DNA of 64,000 nucleotides from Betaproteobacteria bacterium (GCA_009779265.1 WREP01000009.1:1-64000), one strand, 5' to 3'; counted from the first letter of the stretch, positions 6,466 to 18,871 are shown. The notes: generated by a model not told the origin, from the letters alone. Numbers and translations: made by a program.

Positions 6466-9150
6466 TCAATACCCGTGCCTGGCCCGCGCCTCGGCTTCCT
6501 GCTCCTTGAACAGGTTGAATCTTGGCAGGAACTTGTCCCAGTCGATCAGGTGGGCGTCCAGTTCCGGGCCGTCGATGCAGGCGTGTTTGCGGACCATTTC
6601 ACCGTTTTCGTAATACGGCACCATGCAGGCGCCGCACATGCCGGTGGCGTCGACCATGATCGAGTTCAGCGACGCCTCGGTCGGCACGCCGTAGGGCTTG
6701 GTCAGGTCGGAGACCGAACGCATCATTAGCGGCGGGCCGATGGTGACGACCTTGGCGATTGGCGCTTTGTCTTCCAGCATCTTTTGCAGGGGCGCCGTGA
6801 CGAAGCCGGCGATGCCGTGAGAGCCGTCGTTGGTGGTGTAGACAATGTCAAGCAGGTCGCCGAATTCGGCTTTGATCTGGCCAACGTAATCGTCCTCGCC
6901 GGTCCAGAACATCAGCTCTTTGGAACGGAAGCCGGCGATCAGGGTGACGTGGTTGCCCAGCCGCAGATGCTCGCGCATGATCGGATAGACCGGCGGCAGG
7001 CCGAGGCCGCCAGCGGTGAATACGACCGTGCCGTCGACTTTTTCCAGATGCGAGGGACGGCCGAGAGGCCCGGCGATGCCCTGGAAGCGTTCGCCGACCT
7101 GCATCCGGTTCATTTCGATGGAGGCCACGCCCACGCCCTGAATGACGAGCGTGATCCAGCCTTCGTCGGCGTTCCAGTCGGCCAGCGTCAGCGGGATCAG
7201 TTCGCCCCGGTCGCGCGGATGGACGCGGACGAATTGCCCGGCCTTGGCGGCGGCGGCGATGGCCGGCGCCTTGACCCTGAATTCGACGATGCCGGGGCTG
7301 AGGTCGCGGCGAGCCAGAATGACCGGCGCGGTTTGGGCCTGCTCGGTGAAAGCCAGCGCCTTGGCGCGGTCGCCGCTGGCGCCGCTGGCCGTCATGATCT
7401 GCTTGGCGGCCGATTGCCCGTCGCCCGCCGCGAGGATGGCGGTAGAGCCGCCACGGGCGGCGTCGCCGCCGGTATAGACGCCGTCCAGGCTGGTTTCCTG
7501 GGAGCCTTCGCGCAACTGGATGATGCCCTTTTTATCCACGCTGAGGCGCGGCTCGGATTCGCGGATGATCGGGTTGGGGGCGTTGCCCAAGGCCATGATG
7601 ACGACGTCGGCGTCGATCAGCTCGGTCTTGCCCGTCGGCATGGGCCGGCGGCGGCCGGAGGAATCGGGCGCGCCCAGTTCCATCACGTCCAGTACCGCCT
7701 GCTTGACGAAGTGCTTGTCGTCGCCGAGAAATTCGATCGGCGAACGCAGCAGGCGCAGCTCGATGCCTTCTTCTTCGGCGTGTTCCAGTTCTTCCACGCG
7801 GGCCGGCATTTCGGATTTCGTCCGCCGGTAGACGATGGTCACCTTGCCGCGCAGGCGGCGGGCGGTGCGGGCGGCGTCCATGGCGGTGTTGCCGCCGCCG
7901 ATGATGATGACCTGGCGGCCATCGACATAGGGCATGGGCGTCTCGTGTTCCGGGGAATCGGCGTGCATGAGATTGACGCGGGTGAGGAACTCGTTGGCGC
8001 TCATCACATTCAACAGGTGCTCGCCCGGCACATTGAGGAATTGCGGCAGGCCGGCCCCGGAGCCGACGAAAATGTGGGCGAAGCCGGCGTCCTTCAGATC
8101 CTGCAAGGTGGCGGTTTTGCCGATGACGAAGTTGGTGACGAAGCGTCCGCCCAGGGTGCGGATTTTTTCCACCACGTCGTCGATCAGCGTGTTGGGCAGA
8201 CGGAATTCCGGGATGCCGTAGCGCAAGACTCCGCCCAATTCATGGAAAGCCTCGAAGATCGTCACCGGATGCCCGGCGTTGGCCAGCAGGAAGGCGTTGA
8301 TCAGCCCGGAGGGGCCGGAACCGACGATGGCCACCGGCGGCTTGGCGCTGGTCTGCCACGGATCGGGCCGGCCTTCCAGACGGCGCAGGGCCTCGCCGGG
8401 GTTGGCCGCCTTGTCCCATTCGGGCAGGAACCATTCGACCTGGCCGATGGACATGGGGTGCTTGTGCATGCAGACCCCCTGGCACTGGATTTCCTGCGGG
8501 CAGACCCGGCCGGTCACATTGGGCAGCGGGTTGCAGTCGTTGAGCATGGCGACGGCCTCGTCGAACTTGCCCATGCCGAGCAGCTTGAACATGGTCGGGA
8601 TGTGCACCTGCACCGGGCAGCCGCCCTCCCGCTTCTTCTTGCCGTCCTGTAGCCTGCCGATTTCGCAGGGCATCTCGGCGCATTGCTTGTCGCGCAGGGA
8701 TTCCAGCCAGACGAACAATTCCACCTCGCGCAGGCTGTAGCCCAGATCCATGTAGCCCATGTAGCCCTTGTTGACCAGCCCGAAATCCTCGCTGCGCTCC
8801 TCGGGCGGGCGGATGTACGGCCCCATGCCCGAATTGGCCGGCCATTCCTGGGACAGCCCCTGGAACATCGGATAGCGCTCCGAGAGATGCGCGTCGACCC
8901 CGCGCAACCACAGGCGCTGCTTGCCGATGGGCAGATACCACAGAAAGCGCATGAAGGCGGCGGCGGCATCGCCGCCGGCAAGCAGGACTTCCCAGGCGCT
9001 CTTGACGAATTCGCCGCTCAACTCCTCGCCTGACGCGAAGCACGCCGCCACGGCGGCGGCCCCGTCGGCGATGAGAAAGTCGCGAAAGCTCCGCGGGTCG
9101 GCCTGAAGGCGCCGGGCCAGCAGGGCCAGTTCTGAGTTCATGGTGTTCAT
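6466..9150 (-). CDS. Fused NfnAB-like oxidoreductase: GltD/NfnB-like FAD/NADPH part followed by NfnA/PyrK-like FAD/NAD/2Fe-2S part
   Basis: Cys-rich GltD-type N-terminal cluster (CPVQVHIP...CNPLPNVTGRVCPQEIQCQGVC), GSGPSGL and GGGNTAMDAA dinucleotide motifs, then PyrK/NfnA-like segment with 2Fe-2S MCGACMVPYYENGEMVRKHACIDGP; ATGA overlap with the PFOR stop. Confidence 0.88.
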   Translation of the reverse strand: MNTMNSELALLARRLQADPRSFRDFLIADGAAAVAACFASGEELSGEFVKSAWEVLLAGGDAAAAFMRFLWYLPIGKQRLWLRGVDAHLSERYPMFQGLSQEWPANSGMGPYIRPPEERSEDFGLVNKGYMGYMDLGYSLREVELFVWLESLRDKQCAEMPCEIGRLQDGKKKREGGCPVQVHIPTMFKLLGMGKFDEAVAMLNDCNPLPNVTGRVCPQEIQCQGVCMHKHPMSIGQVEWFLPEWDKAANPGEALRRLEGRPDPWQTSAKPPVAIVGSGPSGLINAFLLANAGHPVTIFEAFHELGGVLRYGIPEFRLPNTLIDDVVEKIRTLGGRFVTNFVIGKTATLQDLKDAGFAHIFVGSGAGLPQFLNVPGEHLLNVMSANEFLTRVNLMHADSPEHETPMPYVDGRQVIIIGGGNTAMDAARTARRLRGKVTIVYRRTKSEMPARVEELEHAEEEGIELRLLRSPIEFLGDDKHFVKQAVLDVMELGAPDSSGRRRPMPTGKTELIDADVVIMALGNAPNPIIRESEPRLSVDKKGIIQLREGSQETSLDGVYTGGDAARGGSTAILAAGDGQSAAKQIMTASGASGDRAKALAFTEQAQTAPVILARRDLSPGIVEFRVKAPAIAAAAKAGQFVRVHPRDRGELIPLTLADWNADEGWITLVIQGVGVASIEMNRMQVGERFQGIAGPLGRPSHLEKVDGTVVFTAGGLGLPPVYPIMREHLRLGNHVTLIAGFRSKELMFWTGEDDYVGQIKAEFGDLLDIVYTTNDGSHGIAGFVTAPLQKMLEDKAPIAKVVTIGPPLMMRSVSDLTKPYGVPTEASLNSIMVDATGMCGACMVPYYENGEMVRKHACIDGPELDAHLIDWDKFLPRFNLFKEQEAEARARHGY

Positions 9151-14455: not shown

Positions 14456-14755
14456 TACCGCATTCGCCGGGGTGTCATCCAGCGCGCCGGCCGCGCCATG
14501 GCGATGGGCTTGTTCGGGGTCATGGCAAAATCATGGCGAAAAATTTCCGACTCTGGCCGCTGATCTCGCACCCATCCTGGGATGCTCTGCACCAGTTGAG
14601 CGGCAAGGGTGCGCAACTGCTTGTCCTTGTTTGACGATTGCTTATGTGAAATACGTTCATGCGATTGCCCACGGCAGTGGACAAAACGCGCCGTGAACAG
14701 CATTCTAGCGGCTGTTTGCCGCTCCTCTCTGGCCGTTGAAAAATAGGTAAAAACC

Positions 14756-16753
14756 ATGAATCTTGCCGACTTGCTGCGATTCGGACACATTGCCATACAG
14801 TGTCATGACAACCCTGACGCCGACGCCATTGCCGCCGGTTTCGGGCTGTATTCCTATTTCACGGCCAGAGGGATCAAAGCCGTGCTTTTCCATGGCGGGC
14901 GCGCGCCGGTGACCAAGCCCAATCTGGTGAAAATGCTGGCCCTCTGCGATATTCCCCTGGAGCATTACCCGGAAAGCCGCGATTGGCCGGGCCTGCTCAT
15001 CACCGTGGATTGCCAGCACGGGGCGGGCAACGTGTCGCCCATGCGCGGCGCCGAGGTGGCTGTCATCGATCACCATATCCAGGAATGCCCGATGCCGGCC
15101 CTGTACGACATTCGCCCCTATCTTGGCGCTTGCTCGACCCTGGTTTGGCTCCTGATGCGGGAAGCGGGCTTTTGCCTTGAGGAAATCGGGCCGGAGCGGG
15201 GCGCGACCCTGCTGACCGCCTTGTACTATGGATTGCTTACCGACACCGGCGGTTTTGCCGAGGTCAGGCACCCGCTGGACCGCGATCTGCGTGATCAGGA
15301 TGGAATCGTCGAGCGGATCATCAAGACGCTCAGAAGCTCCAATTTGTCGCTGGAAGATTTGTCCATTGCCTCTTCCGCCCTGGTCGAATTGCGCTTCGAT
15401 CCCCAAGGCAGTTTCGTTCTGGTCGGCGCGCGGCCCTGCGATCCCAACATCCTGGGCTTCATCAGCGATCTCGTCCTGCAAGTGGATACCGTGGATATCG
15501 TCGTGGTTTACTGCGAAACGCCGGGAGGCATCAAATATTCCGTGCGTTCCATCGCCCGGGATTGCAAGGCTTCCGATCTGGCGGCCTGGATCGCCGCCGA
15601 TGGACTCGGTTCCGGCGGCGGTCACGCGGAAAAAGCCGGGGGTTGGATCAGCGGACGCAACTTCGCCGAGCGCATGCCGAACCTCGAACCCGTGGACTAT
15701 TTCGACCGTCGGCTGCGCGAATACCGGGCTGCCTATACCATCATCGACAGCACAGCCGCGCCTCGCGCGGAAGGCATGCTTTCCGAAGCGACTCGGGCGC
15801 GGCGCTATACGAAGCGTCCCCTGCGTCTGGCCTATGTGCCCGCCGAGGCGCTGCCGCGCGGCTCCTCGCTGCAAATCCGCATGCTCGAAGGCGACATCAG
15901 TCTTGCCGCCGGGCCGGACACCTACCTGATGATTGGACTGCTGGGCGAGGTCTATCCCATCTCCCGCGCTGTCTTCGATAGCGTCTACCGCCCTGTGGAC
16001 GCCCCTCTGCAACTGGCCCTGCCATACATGCCCACCGTTCTGGACAAAACGACGGGAATCCGCCTGCGCTTGGACAACATGGCCCGCTCTTGCCTCCGCC
16101 TGGGCGGCGGCGCCGTGCGCGCGGCGCCCCTGGAGCAGGGCGTCAAAGTTTTCACCCGCTGGGATCCGGACAATTATTTCAAGGGAGAAAAGGACGATTG
16201 GCTTGTCTGGTCGGAAGAAGATCCGACGGATATCTACATCGTCACGGCGGCGCTCTTTCCGCTGCTGTACGCTGAAGAAAACGCCGAAACGGACGATGGC
16301 GGCGAAGTGCGCAACTACGATGGCATCGACGTGGCCGCGCAACCCGGCGCCGTGCGGGCGCGGAAAAAACCGCTCACGGTGACCGTGCGTTTCGCGCGCC
16401 AAGCTGGCGTCGCCGCCACGCGCGAAGGTCCCGTGCCCTACGCCATCGGCGATGCTCTGATCACCGGCGTCAGCGGTGAAACATGGCCCGTGCGCCCGGA
16501 GCATTTCGCTGCCGCCTACGCGCCCCAGCCGCCAGTGCAAGCTGGAGAGGACGGCGTCTATCAGGTGCGCCCCATCGAAGTTGATGCCCTTTGCATGCCC
16601 GCCATCTTTTGTCTCAGCCTGAAAAACGGCGGCTTGCTCTGGGGGCATCGCGGCGACTGGCTGATGCAGTACGGCAAGGGTGATTACGGCATTGTCGACG
16701 CGGGGGTTTTTACCGCAACCTATGAAATTTCGCGCGGCCCGGAAAAGTCATGA
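14756..16753 (+). CDS. DHH/DHHA1-family phosphoesterase with a C-terminal array of GDWLV-like repeats
   Basis: DHH motifs: DNPDADAIAAG, VIDHHIQ, LLTDTGG; DHHA1 motif DGLGSGGGHAEKAGG; the C-terminal ~320 aa show four repeats of pattern GD(W)L(V/M)...(Y/W)(P)(I/V)...F...Y. Confidence 0.85.
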   Translation: MNLADLLRFGHIAIQCHDNPDADAIAAGFGLYSYFTARGIKAVLFHGGRAPVTKPNLVKMLALCDIPLEHYPESRDWPGLLITVDCQHGAGNVSPMRGAEVAVIDHHIQECPMPALYDIRPYLGACSTLVWLLMREAGFCLEEIGPERGATLLTALYYGLLTDTGGFAEVRHPLDRDLRDQDGIVERIIKTLRSSNLSLEDLSIASSALVELRFDPQGSFVLVGARPCDPNILGFISDLVLQVDTVDIVVVYCETPGGIKYSVRSIARDCKASDLAAWIAADGLGSGGGHAEKAGGWISGRNFAERMPNLEPVDYFDRRLREYRAAYTIIDSTAAPRAEGMLSEATRARRYTKRPLRLAYVPAEALPRGSSLQIRMLEGDISLAAGPDTYLMIGLLGEVYPISRAVFDSVYRPVDAPLQLALPYMPTVLDKTTGIRLRLDNMARSCLRLGGGAVRAAPLEQGVKVFTRWDPDNYFKGEKDDWLVWSEEDPTDIYIVTAALFPLLYAEENAETDDGGEVRNYDGIDVAAQPGAVRARKKPLTVTVRFARQAGVAATREGPVPYAIGDALITGVSGETWPVRPEHFAAAYAPQPPVQAGEDGVYQVRPIEVDALCMPAIFCLSLKNGGLLWGHRGDWLMQYGKGDYGIVDAGVFTATYEISRGPEKS

Positions 16754-17703
16754 CGCACGACATTTTTGTAAGCTATTCCACCCGGGACAAGCTGTTCGCC
16801 GACGCGCTCGTGCACCGGCTGGAAAAAGCCGGCTACCGCTGCTGGTATGCGCCGCGTGACATCGCGGCGGGCGTCGCTTGGCCCCAGGCCATCAGCCAGG
16901 CCATACGCGAGATTCCTCTCATGCTGCTGGTTTTTTCCGGCGCCTCCAACAGTTCGGACGAAATTTCCCGCGAATTGACCTTGGCTTCCAGCAATAAACG
17001 CATCGTGCTGCCGGTGCGCATCGAGAATGTCCTGCCTGGCGCTGGGCTGGAATATCACCTGGCCGATCGGCATTGGCTGGATGTTTTCGGTCTCGAAGAA
17101 GAAGCGGCCATCAATCGCGTGCTGGAAGGACTGGCGAGTTACGCCCCCATTTTCGCCGCCGCGCGTCCCGACGAGACGCCCGCGCCAGCCCCCGCCGCGC
17201 CATCTCCGGATTCGCCATCGCGGTCGCGCGGCCTGTGGATACTGTTGGCCTCTTTGCTGCTCATACTGCTCGTCGGCGCGCTCGCCTTTTGGTTTGAACG
17301 CGCGCCCGATGACACGGACGCCCTCAGCCTGCACGAACCGCCCTCCCTGGTTCACTACGTCAACGACAACCTGTCCATCGCCGCGCATACTCTGCGCCTG
17401 AACCCGTCGCCCGATTCACCGCTGCCGCAATATCTCGTCACGCTCACCGGCATCGGCGAGCCTTTTGATGGCCACATCTTTCTCTGCCAGCAGCGGGAGA
17501 AAAACAATACCTTGCGCTTTGACGCCACCATTGACGATCGGTCGTTTGTCCTGCTCATCGTGGATCACAGGGGGCGGGGCATGATCTACCAACCCGGTAG
17601 CGCGCGGGAATACCCCGTCCTGCTTTCGCCACGGGATAATAACGCCGCGAGCGCCCGGCATATGCTCAAGATGTACCGGCAAGGCAAACGGTGGACGGAA
17701 TGA
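16750..17703 (+). CDS. TIR-domain protein with one transmembrane helix and a C-terminal extracytoplasmic domain
   Basis: HDIFVSYSTRDKLFADALVHRLEKAGYRCWYAPRDIAAGVAWPQAISQAIREI...SNSSDEISREL...LEYHLADRHWLDVF (bacterial TIR_2 pattern); TM WILLASLLLILLVGALAFWF; ATGA overlap with the DHH gene. Confidence 0.9.
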   Translation: MTHDIFVSYSTRDKLFADALVHRLEKAGYRCWYAPRDIAAGVAWPQAISQAIREIPLMLLVFSGASNSSDEISRELTLASSNKRIVLPVRIENVLPGAGLEYHLADRHWLDVFGLEEEAAINRVLEGLASYAPIFAAARPDETPAPAPAAPSPDSPSRSRGLWILLASLLLILLVGALAFWFERAPDDTDALSLHEPPSLVHYVNDNLSIAAHTLRLNPSPDSPLPQYLVTLTGIGEPFDGHIFLCQQREKNNTLRFDATIDDRSFVLLIVDHRGRGMIYQPGSAREYPVLLSPRDNNAASARHMLKMYRQGKRWTE

Positions 17704-17854
17704 ACGAAATTTTGTGCGCTTTTCATTCAAATGCCAAACAGGATAAAATCCGCGTGGCATTCTTTTGGAGATAAGGTTTTCAACCCTGTTGGCAGGTTGA
17801 GAAAATGCCCCGGCTTCATTGAGCGCAAGAAAATCTGATGAAAGAGGTGCGTGT

Positions 17855-18871
17855 ATGTCGAGCAATGTGAATTATTCGAGAGCATACGATGTGTTCGTGT
17901 CTTACCGCAGGGACGGCGGCGAGACGATGGCGATCTTGATACGCGATCGCCTTGCGTCGAAAGGTTTCAATGTTTTTCTTGACGTCGAGAGTCTGAACTC
18001 GGGAAATTTCAACACGAAACTGCTCCAGGTAATCGAAAGTTGCAATGACTTTGTCGCGGTTCTCTCGCCGGGCGCCCTGGATCGCTGTGCCAACGAGGAT
18101 GATTGGGTGAGGGCCGAGATAGCGCACGCGATCAAACACAATAAAAATATAGTTCCCATCATGCTGCGCGGTTTCGAATGGCCAGAACATCTGCCGGAGG
18201 ATATCGCGGATCTGCCGATGAAAAACGGCGTTAACGCGAACAACAATGAATATTTCGACGCCGCCATTGACAGACTGACCGAAAAGTTTTTATTGTCAAA
18301 GCCGATGAAGCTTTTCGACAAGATAAGCCTCTTTGCGAAGAATGCGGTTGACAAGACAAGCGAGGTTATCGAATCCGCGAAGATAAACGAGAAGATCAGC
18401 GAGAGCAGAAGGAAATTTTCGGAAACAAAGACACAGTTCGGCGACATGGTGGATGTTTCGAAGTTAAATACGAGGATCAGCGATAGTAAATACAGAGTAA
18501 ACAATATCAAGCAAAAACTCGGTGATTATTACTGGGGAAAATACAAAGAAGGCGTCGCGCTTGATGCCGAGGCGGATAAACTTTGCGCCGCGATCAAGGA
18601 CGAAGTCGAATTGATCGACGAATGTAATCGCGAGATTCAAAAAATAAAAAAGATACCCGAAACAGGTAACGCGGCGAAACCGGCGGAAGATATAAAATGC
18701 GCGGAATGCAGCGCGATTCTGCCCTCGGATGCGAAATTCTGTCCCGAATGTGGTGCAGTGGCCGCAGTCAAAGCGCCTGAGCCAGCCCCGGAAGTTGTAC
18801 TTTGCAGCAACTGCGGCGCGCAAATTTCGAGTGACAGAAAATTTTGCCAGGAATGCGGAACCAGGCTGTGA
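17855..18871 (+). CDS. TIR-domain protein with coiled linker and C-terminal double zinc ribbon
   Basis: AYDVFVSYRRDGGETMAILIRDRLASKGFNVFLDVESLNSGNFN...FVAVLSPGALDRCANEDDWVRAEIAHAIKHNKNIVPIMLRGFEWP; C-terminus CAEC...CPECG and CSNCG...CQECG. Start ATG 17855 with AGAGG upstream. Confidence 0.9.
   Translation: MSSNVNYSRAYDVFVSYRRDGGETMAILIRDRLASKGFNVFLDVESLNSGNFNTKLLQVIESCNDFVAVLSPGALDRCANEDDWVRAEIAHAIKHNKNIVPIMLRGFEWPEHLPEDIADLPMKNGVNANNNEYFDAAIDRLTEKFLLSKPMKLFDKISLFAKNAVDKTSEVIESAKINEKISESRRKFSETKTQFGDMVDVSKLNTRISDSKYRVNNIKQKLGDYYWGKYKEGVALDAEADKLCAAIKDEVELIDECNREIQKIKKIPETGNAAKPAEDIKCAECSAILPSDAKFCPECGAVAAVKAPEPAPEVVLCSNCGAQISSDRKFCQECGTRL

Follow-up and report, generated by a model that had tools for sequence, protein, structure and literature searches.

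TIR domains are immune-type, NAD-cutting domains, and the signals made by them are used alike in the immunity of bacteria, plants and animals. In a betaproteobacterial genome, the gene of a membrane-anchored TIR protein is coupled to that of a DHH phosphoesterase, which raises the question of whether the two proteins belong together and what a phosphoesterase might do beside a TIR. The locus lies in a window of 64,000 nucleotides (GCA_009779265.1 WREP01000009.1:1-64000), to which all coordinates without a locus number refer, and all features described are on the plus strand. The first open reading frame (14756..16753) encodes a DHH/DHHA1/PGDYG/PGDYG protein of 665 amino acids, predicted from Pfam matches and an AlphaFold model to be a soluble metal-dependent phosphodiesterase. 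Its end overlaps in an ATGA stop/start (16750..16753) with the reading frame of TIR-1 (16750..17703, 317 aa), which consists of an N-terminal TIR domain, one transmembrane segment and a C-terminal part of about 135 residues. TIR-2 follows (17855..18871, 338 aa), combining a soluble TIR with a helical region and two zinc ribbons according to Pfam. A sequence-only reading had described the first two genes as translationally coupled and as a candidate nucleotide-signalling or defence cassette. Both reading frames, the overlap and every motif quoted there were found in the sequence; this reading was right on the gene pair, but it overlooked the two PGDYG modules and the adjoining TIR-2, and it missed that the genome has no TIR genes besides TIR-1 and TIR-2 (TIR_2 domains in 2.53 Mb, 75 contigs). 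The DHH protein is present in this genome as a single copy.

The domain composition of the DHH protein points to an enzyme. Its DHH domain (PF01368, residues 11-159, 14786..15232) was detected with a Pfam E-value of 5e-12 and is followed just past its end by the motif-IV residue Asp163 (15242-15244), whereas the DHHA1 domain (PF02272, residues 228-300, 15437..15655), which contains the GSGGGH motif, scored slightly below the cut-off (E 6e-5). In an alignment of 31 homologues H17, D21, D23, D85, D105-H106-H107, D163, R264 and GGG287-289 were invariant and His290 of the DHHA1 domain nearly so; the protein thus has the motif I-IV metal ligands and the DHHA1 GGGH that define the DHH/DHHA1 superfamily. 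The nearest solved folds to the AlphaFold model (mean pLDDT 85.9) were NrnA, GdpP, Borrelia DhhP and the Thermotoga maritima phosphodiesterase TM1595, with family II pyrophosphatases as weaker matches, and many of the matching structures contain pApA, AMP or GMP. Because the motif residues are invariant and the model matches nucleotide phosphodiesterases, it is very likely that the protein is active as a nucleotide phosphodiesterase or pyrophosphatase. It shares the DHH-DHHA1 fold and all motif residues with phosphodiesterases of the NrnA/DhhP/GdpP type, but differs from them in its two PGDYG modules and its linkage to TIR genes, is only about 17-24% identical to the solved members and remains below the NCBIfam cut-offs: no match at the level of the NrnA equivalog was obtained, and the weak sub-cut-off matches were to inorganic pyrophosphatase and RecJ.

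The region behind the DHHA1 domain is occupied by the PGDYG modules. The first one (residues ~341-510, 15776..16285) was recognized by a profile-profile match (probability 96%, E 2.6e-9); it is common to the whole DHH family and passes the PF14083 cut-off in a Desulfovibrio homologue (L033). The second one (PF14083, residues 558-656, 16427..16723, E 5.6e-23) is also present in relatives from Azonexus, Synergistaceae and Desulfovibrio. As a search with the full-length protein in the order of the window mainly returned PGDYG-only proteins, the DHH part was searched alone, and in the class of the window this yielded only a canonical NrnA, which is 31% identical to the DHH protein and adjoins truB. 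No relatives were found among the viral contigs of IMG/VR. Four GenBank records labelled 'Bacteriophage sp.' (UNVERIFIED; L023-L026: MT836910, MT836060, MT835727 and MT835504) do carry relatives, but they resemble fragments of bacterial chromosomes with aroE/aroK, ilvC-like and transporter genes; we therefore rejected these relatives as phage genes and regard the records as probably bacterial contigs. In two members of 740-746 aa, an HAD phosphatase is fused to the C-terminus of the DHH-PGDYG protein (L024 4201-6423 and L073 5977-8217), in both cases next to an aroE-like gene, which suggests a stepwise dephosphorylation of one product.

TIR-1 was assigned to the Pfam family TIR_2 (PF13676, E 5e-24), and its model reaches a pLDDT of about 90 in the TIR part (residues 1-140), dropping below 50 in the C-terminal part after the membrane helix. 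Among its fold neighbours are the TIR-APAZ proteins of SPARTA (NADase TIRs), SARM1 and AbTir. The glutamate of the SREL motif, which had been proposed to occupy the catalytic position of NADase-type TIRs, is indeed found there (Glu75, codon GAA, 16972..16974): together with Ser69 it forms the only two invariant columns in the alignment of 11 DHH-linked TIRs, and the aligned TIRs of known structure also have Glu in this column. TIR-1 hence combines the TIR fold with the Glu expected of NADase- or cyclase-type TIRs. TIR-2 likewise keeps a glutamate (WVRAEI, residue 88), and no membrane segment was found in it.

The transmembrane helix of TIR-1 (residues 162-180, 17233..17289) stands out with a hydropathy of 2.82, has two Lys/Arg residues before and one after it, and is also seen as a helix at 161-184 in the AlphaFold model. 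We extended the topology analysis to 45 TIRs of at least 250 aa, comprising 43 encoded near DHH homologues and the two of the window. A hydrophobic segment was present in 41 of them, and 39 of these 41 carry more Lys/Arg before than after it. Judged by hydropathy and charge, the linked TIRs are therefore predicted to expose the TIR domain to the cytosol and the C-terminus to the outside. The putative outer domain varies: a beta-propeller/WD40 in most linked TIRs of Lachnospiraceae, LRRs in Desulfovibrio and a trypsin-like domain in Epulonipiscium-like MAGs, with Bmp/PnrA substrate-binding, DUF6273 and TPR-like parts in others, while the ~135 residues of TIR-1 match no known family. The one-pass architecture, and in Desulfovibrio the LRRs, recall Toll-like receptors (LRR-TM-TIR); however, the order is reversed in the bacterial proteins (TIR-TM-LRR), the Glu is kept and the operon partner is a DHH protein, so that the resemblance is likely convergent.

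The TIRs of animal TLRs, which also have a transmembrane segment, signal through contact. By analogy, the linked TIRs could be adaptors or scaffolds that turn over no NAD, and a membrane TIR receptor would control by contact a housekeeping or stress phosphodiesterase acting on nanoRNA, pAp or a cyclic dinucleotide. The NrnA/DhhP-like fold of the DHH protein and the two fusions to an HAD phosphatase would suit such a role, as would the metabolic context of the gene in Lachnospiraceae, where it is often preceded by purine-biosynthesis genes and followed by the gene for GlnRS, with or without a TIR. An adaptor would have no need of the catalytic-type Glu, though, and none of the aligned linked TIRs deviates from it; we consider contact signalling of this kind quite unlikely.

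Two betaproteobacterial MAGs encode the closest homologues of the DHH protein, the identity in the DHH part being 88% for L027 and 76% for L028 from Azonexus. The order DHH-(ATGA)-TIR is the same in both and in the window. Compared with L027 at the DNA level, only 14736..18869 out of 22 kb of the window aligned (blastn, 85% identity), that is, a three-gene cassette of 4.1 kb. As the alignment covers the cassette alone, the flanking genes differ between the two genomes. The match to L028 extends from 14751 to 17216; TIR-2, which is conserved together with the DHH protein and TIR-1 in L027, is absent from L028. It also deviates in GC content, with 0.49-0.51 vs 0.62-0.69 in the flanks. In the window the cassette is surrounded by genes for NifJ-like, GltD-like, ParE and RtcB-like proteins, and no match to a cassette beside parE was found in three relatives (L171-L173). 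The cassette thus acts as a unit that sits in different places.

Gene order and mobility bear on the idea of a toxin-antitoxin-like pair, in which the TIR would deplete NAD+ and kill or stall the cell and the DHH protein would neutralize it by direct binding instead of hydrolysing its product. In the window and its relatives the DHH gene comes first with the ATGA overlap, the cassette stands beside different genes in the related MAG, and remnants of TIR genes are found next to intact DHH genes, all of which speaks for such a pair. On the other hand, the TIR gene precedes the DHH gene in Desulfovibrio, Synergistaceae and others (with a -4 overlap in L031, L032 and L033), convergent and divergent arrangements also occur, TIRs exist in the absence of a DHH protein, and the active-site residues of the latter are invariant. 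Neutralization by binding therefore appears improbable.

To determine how widely the pairing recurs, we used two samples, which mostly consist of MAGs with taxonomic names as given in their records. The first one comprised the best 80 of more than 490 DHH relatives, ranked by DHH similarity and not by TIR. When the flanks of this best-match set (up to 6 kb) were scanned with a TIR HMM, 41 of the 82 loci proved to contain a TIR gene, mostly as immediate neighbour, and the members with a nearby TIR span Azonexus, Synergistaceae, Desulfovibrio and Clostridia. The second sample was chosen regardless of linkage and covered 118 genomes of the order of Lachnospiraceae bacterium GAM79 (L106, G695). 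Full-length DHH-PGDYG proteins were present in 23 of these genomes (26 copies), and TIR_2 genes were searched in 77 of the 118, including all DHH carriers. Ten of the 26 DHH copies had a TIR gene within 4 kb, as read from coordinates with most of the regions also fetched and read, vs 0.17 expected from TIR counts and genome sizes (P about 2e-16); after merging two near-identical pairs, P was still about 2e-12, both values assuming random gene placement and genomes that are independent apart from the merged pairs. TIR genes were also commoner in genomes with the DHH protein (17/23) than in those without it (20/54; Fisher P 0.005).

In a tree of 103 DHH proteins, the state changes between linked and unlinked at least 26 times, and the linked members show four arrangements with the TIR gene downstream, upstream, convergent or divergent. 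The DHH-TIR association is thus retained or has been re-formed many times. Adjacency in other genomes had been set beforehand as the test of the sequence-only reading, and it is conserved in Betaproteobacteria, Synergistaceae, Desulfovibrio and Clostridia; since the pair recurs in other phyla, a chance adjacency is excluded. At two loci (L146 and L147) a single DHH gene is accompanied by a run of three genes with TIR domains: they encode short TIR-TM proteins, with a trypsin-like ORF after one of these, and a long WD40-type TIR. A presumed DHH-TIR fusion of 1541 aa in L101 was rejected because an in-frame TAG separates the genes; the two share one frame around 7480-7700 and are a single TAG and five codons apart, so that a read-through product is conceivable.

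At the same time, the pairing is facultative. In 23 loci of the purine/GlnRS context the TIR gene beside the DHH gene was intact in nine, truncated in two and absent in 12, which means that the DHH protein persists after loss or decay of the TIR. Six of the 23 DHH genomes of the order-wide sample had no TIR_2 gene at all. Conversely, TIR genes occur in the 20 DHH-less genomes mentioned above, so that TIRs in general do not require the DHH protein. Truncated or split TIR genes stand next to intact DHH genes in L061, L070, L072 and L153, the truncation in L061 perhaps being just due to the end of the contig. Some genomes with an unlinked DHH gene carry a TIR elsewhere, as in Desulfovibrio cuneatus, where a 447-aa TIR resembles TIR-1. 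The genes flanking this TIR locus resemble the gene upstream of the DHH gene, which in this species (L178, L179) is directly followed by a stand-alone PGDYG match.

These counts bear on the role of the DHH protein. It could be the effector: the PGDYG modules would bind the TIR signal and switch on the DHH enzyme, which would then degrade nucleic acid or nucleotides, so that abortive infection would proceed as in Thoeris but through a new effector. The fusion of a sensor-like module to an enzyme next to a TIR matches this logic, and PGDYG is found beside a TIR a second time in L137, fused to a membrane protein. However, the DHH protein outlives the TIR in the 12 loci with an absent and the two with a truncated TIR, and it is present in the six genomes without any TIR_2 gene. 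In L137 (1420-5155) and L175 (4886-8395) the gene after the TIR gene encodes a membrane protein whose Rossmann-like part is of the 'VxGxxGHR' type; this protein begins with a PGDYG domain in L137 but lacks it in L175. Furthermore, no TIR was found near stand-alone PGDYG genes in 12 contexts from 12 genomes. We therefore rejected PGDYG as a generally TIR-linked domain, and the case for it as a sensor is weak because of these TIR-free contexts and the PGDYG-less relative. Overall, an effector function is unlikely, and the retention of the DHH protein without a TIR favours an off-switch or antidote, or an independent role.

The reading we prefer, tentatively and from sequence features, is a facultative two-component module for nucleotide signalling, in which a NAD-consuming TIR of membrane-receptor type is paired with a DHH-PGDYG protein that clears or limits its product. 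The TIR would be a one-pass membrane protein with a cytosolic TIR domain and a variable sensor domain on the outer side; once triggered, it would consume NAD+ and form ADP-ribose or a nucleotide of the cyclic ADP-ribose type. The cytosolic, metal-dependent DHH-DHHA1-PGDYG phosphodiesterase or pyrophosphatase would hydrolyse this nucleotide or a downstream one and thereby end or limit the signal as an off-switch or antidote, and the PGDYG modules are probably binding sites for a ligand or partner. Acting on the TIR product, the enzyme would need to cut a pyrophosphate or phosphodiester bond. The sequences show the genes, their domains, the conserved catalytic-type residues, the predicted topology and the repeated adjacency, from which we infer what the enzymes do, which signal they use and what triggers it. 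The DHH protein could also have a housekeeping role on nanoRNA or pAp that is unrelated to the TIR.

Precedent for a DHH off-switch comes by analogy from MAD, a membrane-associated DHH-DHHA1 nuclease of Saccharolobus (Sulfolobus) islandicus that degrades cyclic oligoadenylate and is proposed to clear this messenger as the off-switch of type III CRISPR (PMC7854544). Compared with MAD, the DHH protein of the window adds the PGDYG modules, has a TIR and not Cas10 as partner, and shows no strong transmembrane segment, its maximum hydropathy of 1.73 lying within the folded DHHA1 region; an association with the membrane through the TIR partner is possible. Removal of a TIR-made signal has been proposed for the glycosidase RyDEP (PMC13232231), but this is a phage enzyme with a RyR domain and no DHH domain, whereas the present case is host-encoded and predicted. 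According to a 2026 preprint, hydrolysis of 2'cADPR or 3'cADPR had not been known for any protein before the phage enzyme reported there. A bolder version, which we hold to be rather unlikely, would make the pair a multi-phylum system resembling Toll receptors, with outer sensors of WD40, LRR, protease-like or binding-protein-like type that cause the cytosolic TIR to produce a NAD-derived messenger, the DHH-PGDYG protein as the first host-encoded hydrolase dedicated to a TIR signal and PGDYG as a new sensor of NAD-derived nucleotides.

With respect to known defence systems, the cassette is close in plan to Thoeris (ThsB TIR cyclase and ThsA-type effectors), with which it shares a TIR in a small operon, the catalytic-type Glu and a possible NAD-derived signal. 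In contrast to Thoeris, TIR-1 is membrane-anchored with an outer domain and its partner is a DHH hydrolase; the cassette contains no ThsA-type gene, the partners being the DHH protein and TIR-2, and the PADLOC ThsB matches to TIR-2 are weak and partial. Nor does it belong to CBASS or TIR-SAVED: the three cassette proteins have no SAVED or CD-NTase domain, neither occurs among the named flanking genes, and the TIR-SAVED matches of PADLOC cover the TIR part only. The nucleotide-signal part of the original proposal stands to the extent that an intact DHH protein beside a Glu-keeping TIR fits this chemistry. Its defence part found no support, since the flanks are metabolic or housekeeping genes with no defence island seen at the locus, no PADLOC family matches the DHH protein, and the TIRs match PADLOC entries weakly and partially via the generic TIR domain. 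A mobile-looking cassette with varied outer sensors would fit conflict systems and equally general sensing.

In the open literature, mostly outside subscription papers so that a prior description is possible, we found no paper that links DHH phosphoesterases with TIR or mentions PGDYG. Taken together, our results point to an apparently undescribed nucleotide-signalling or defence module built from ingredients of known kinds. If the preferred reading is true, the missing off-switch would be a host phosphodiesterase family that is genetically linked to membrane TIR receptors in common gut bacteria, and the module would be a bacterial counterpart of the transmembrane TIR receptors. Even with a different signal, the pair provides a defined two-protein set for direct testing.
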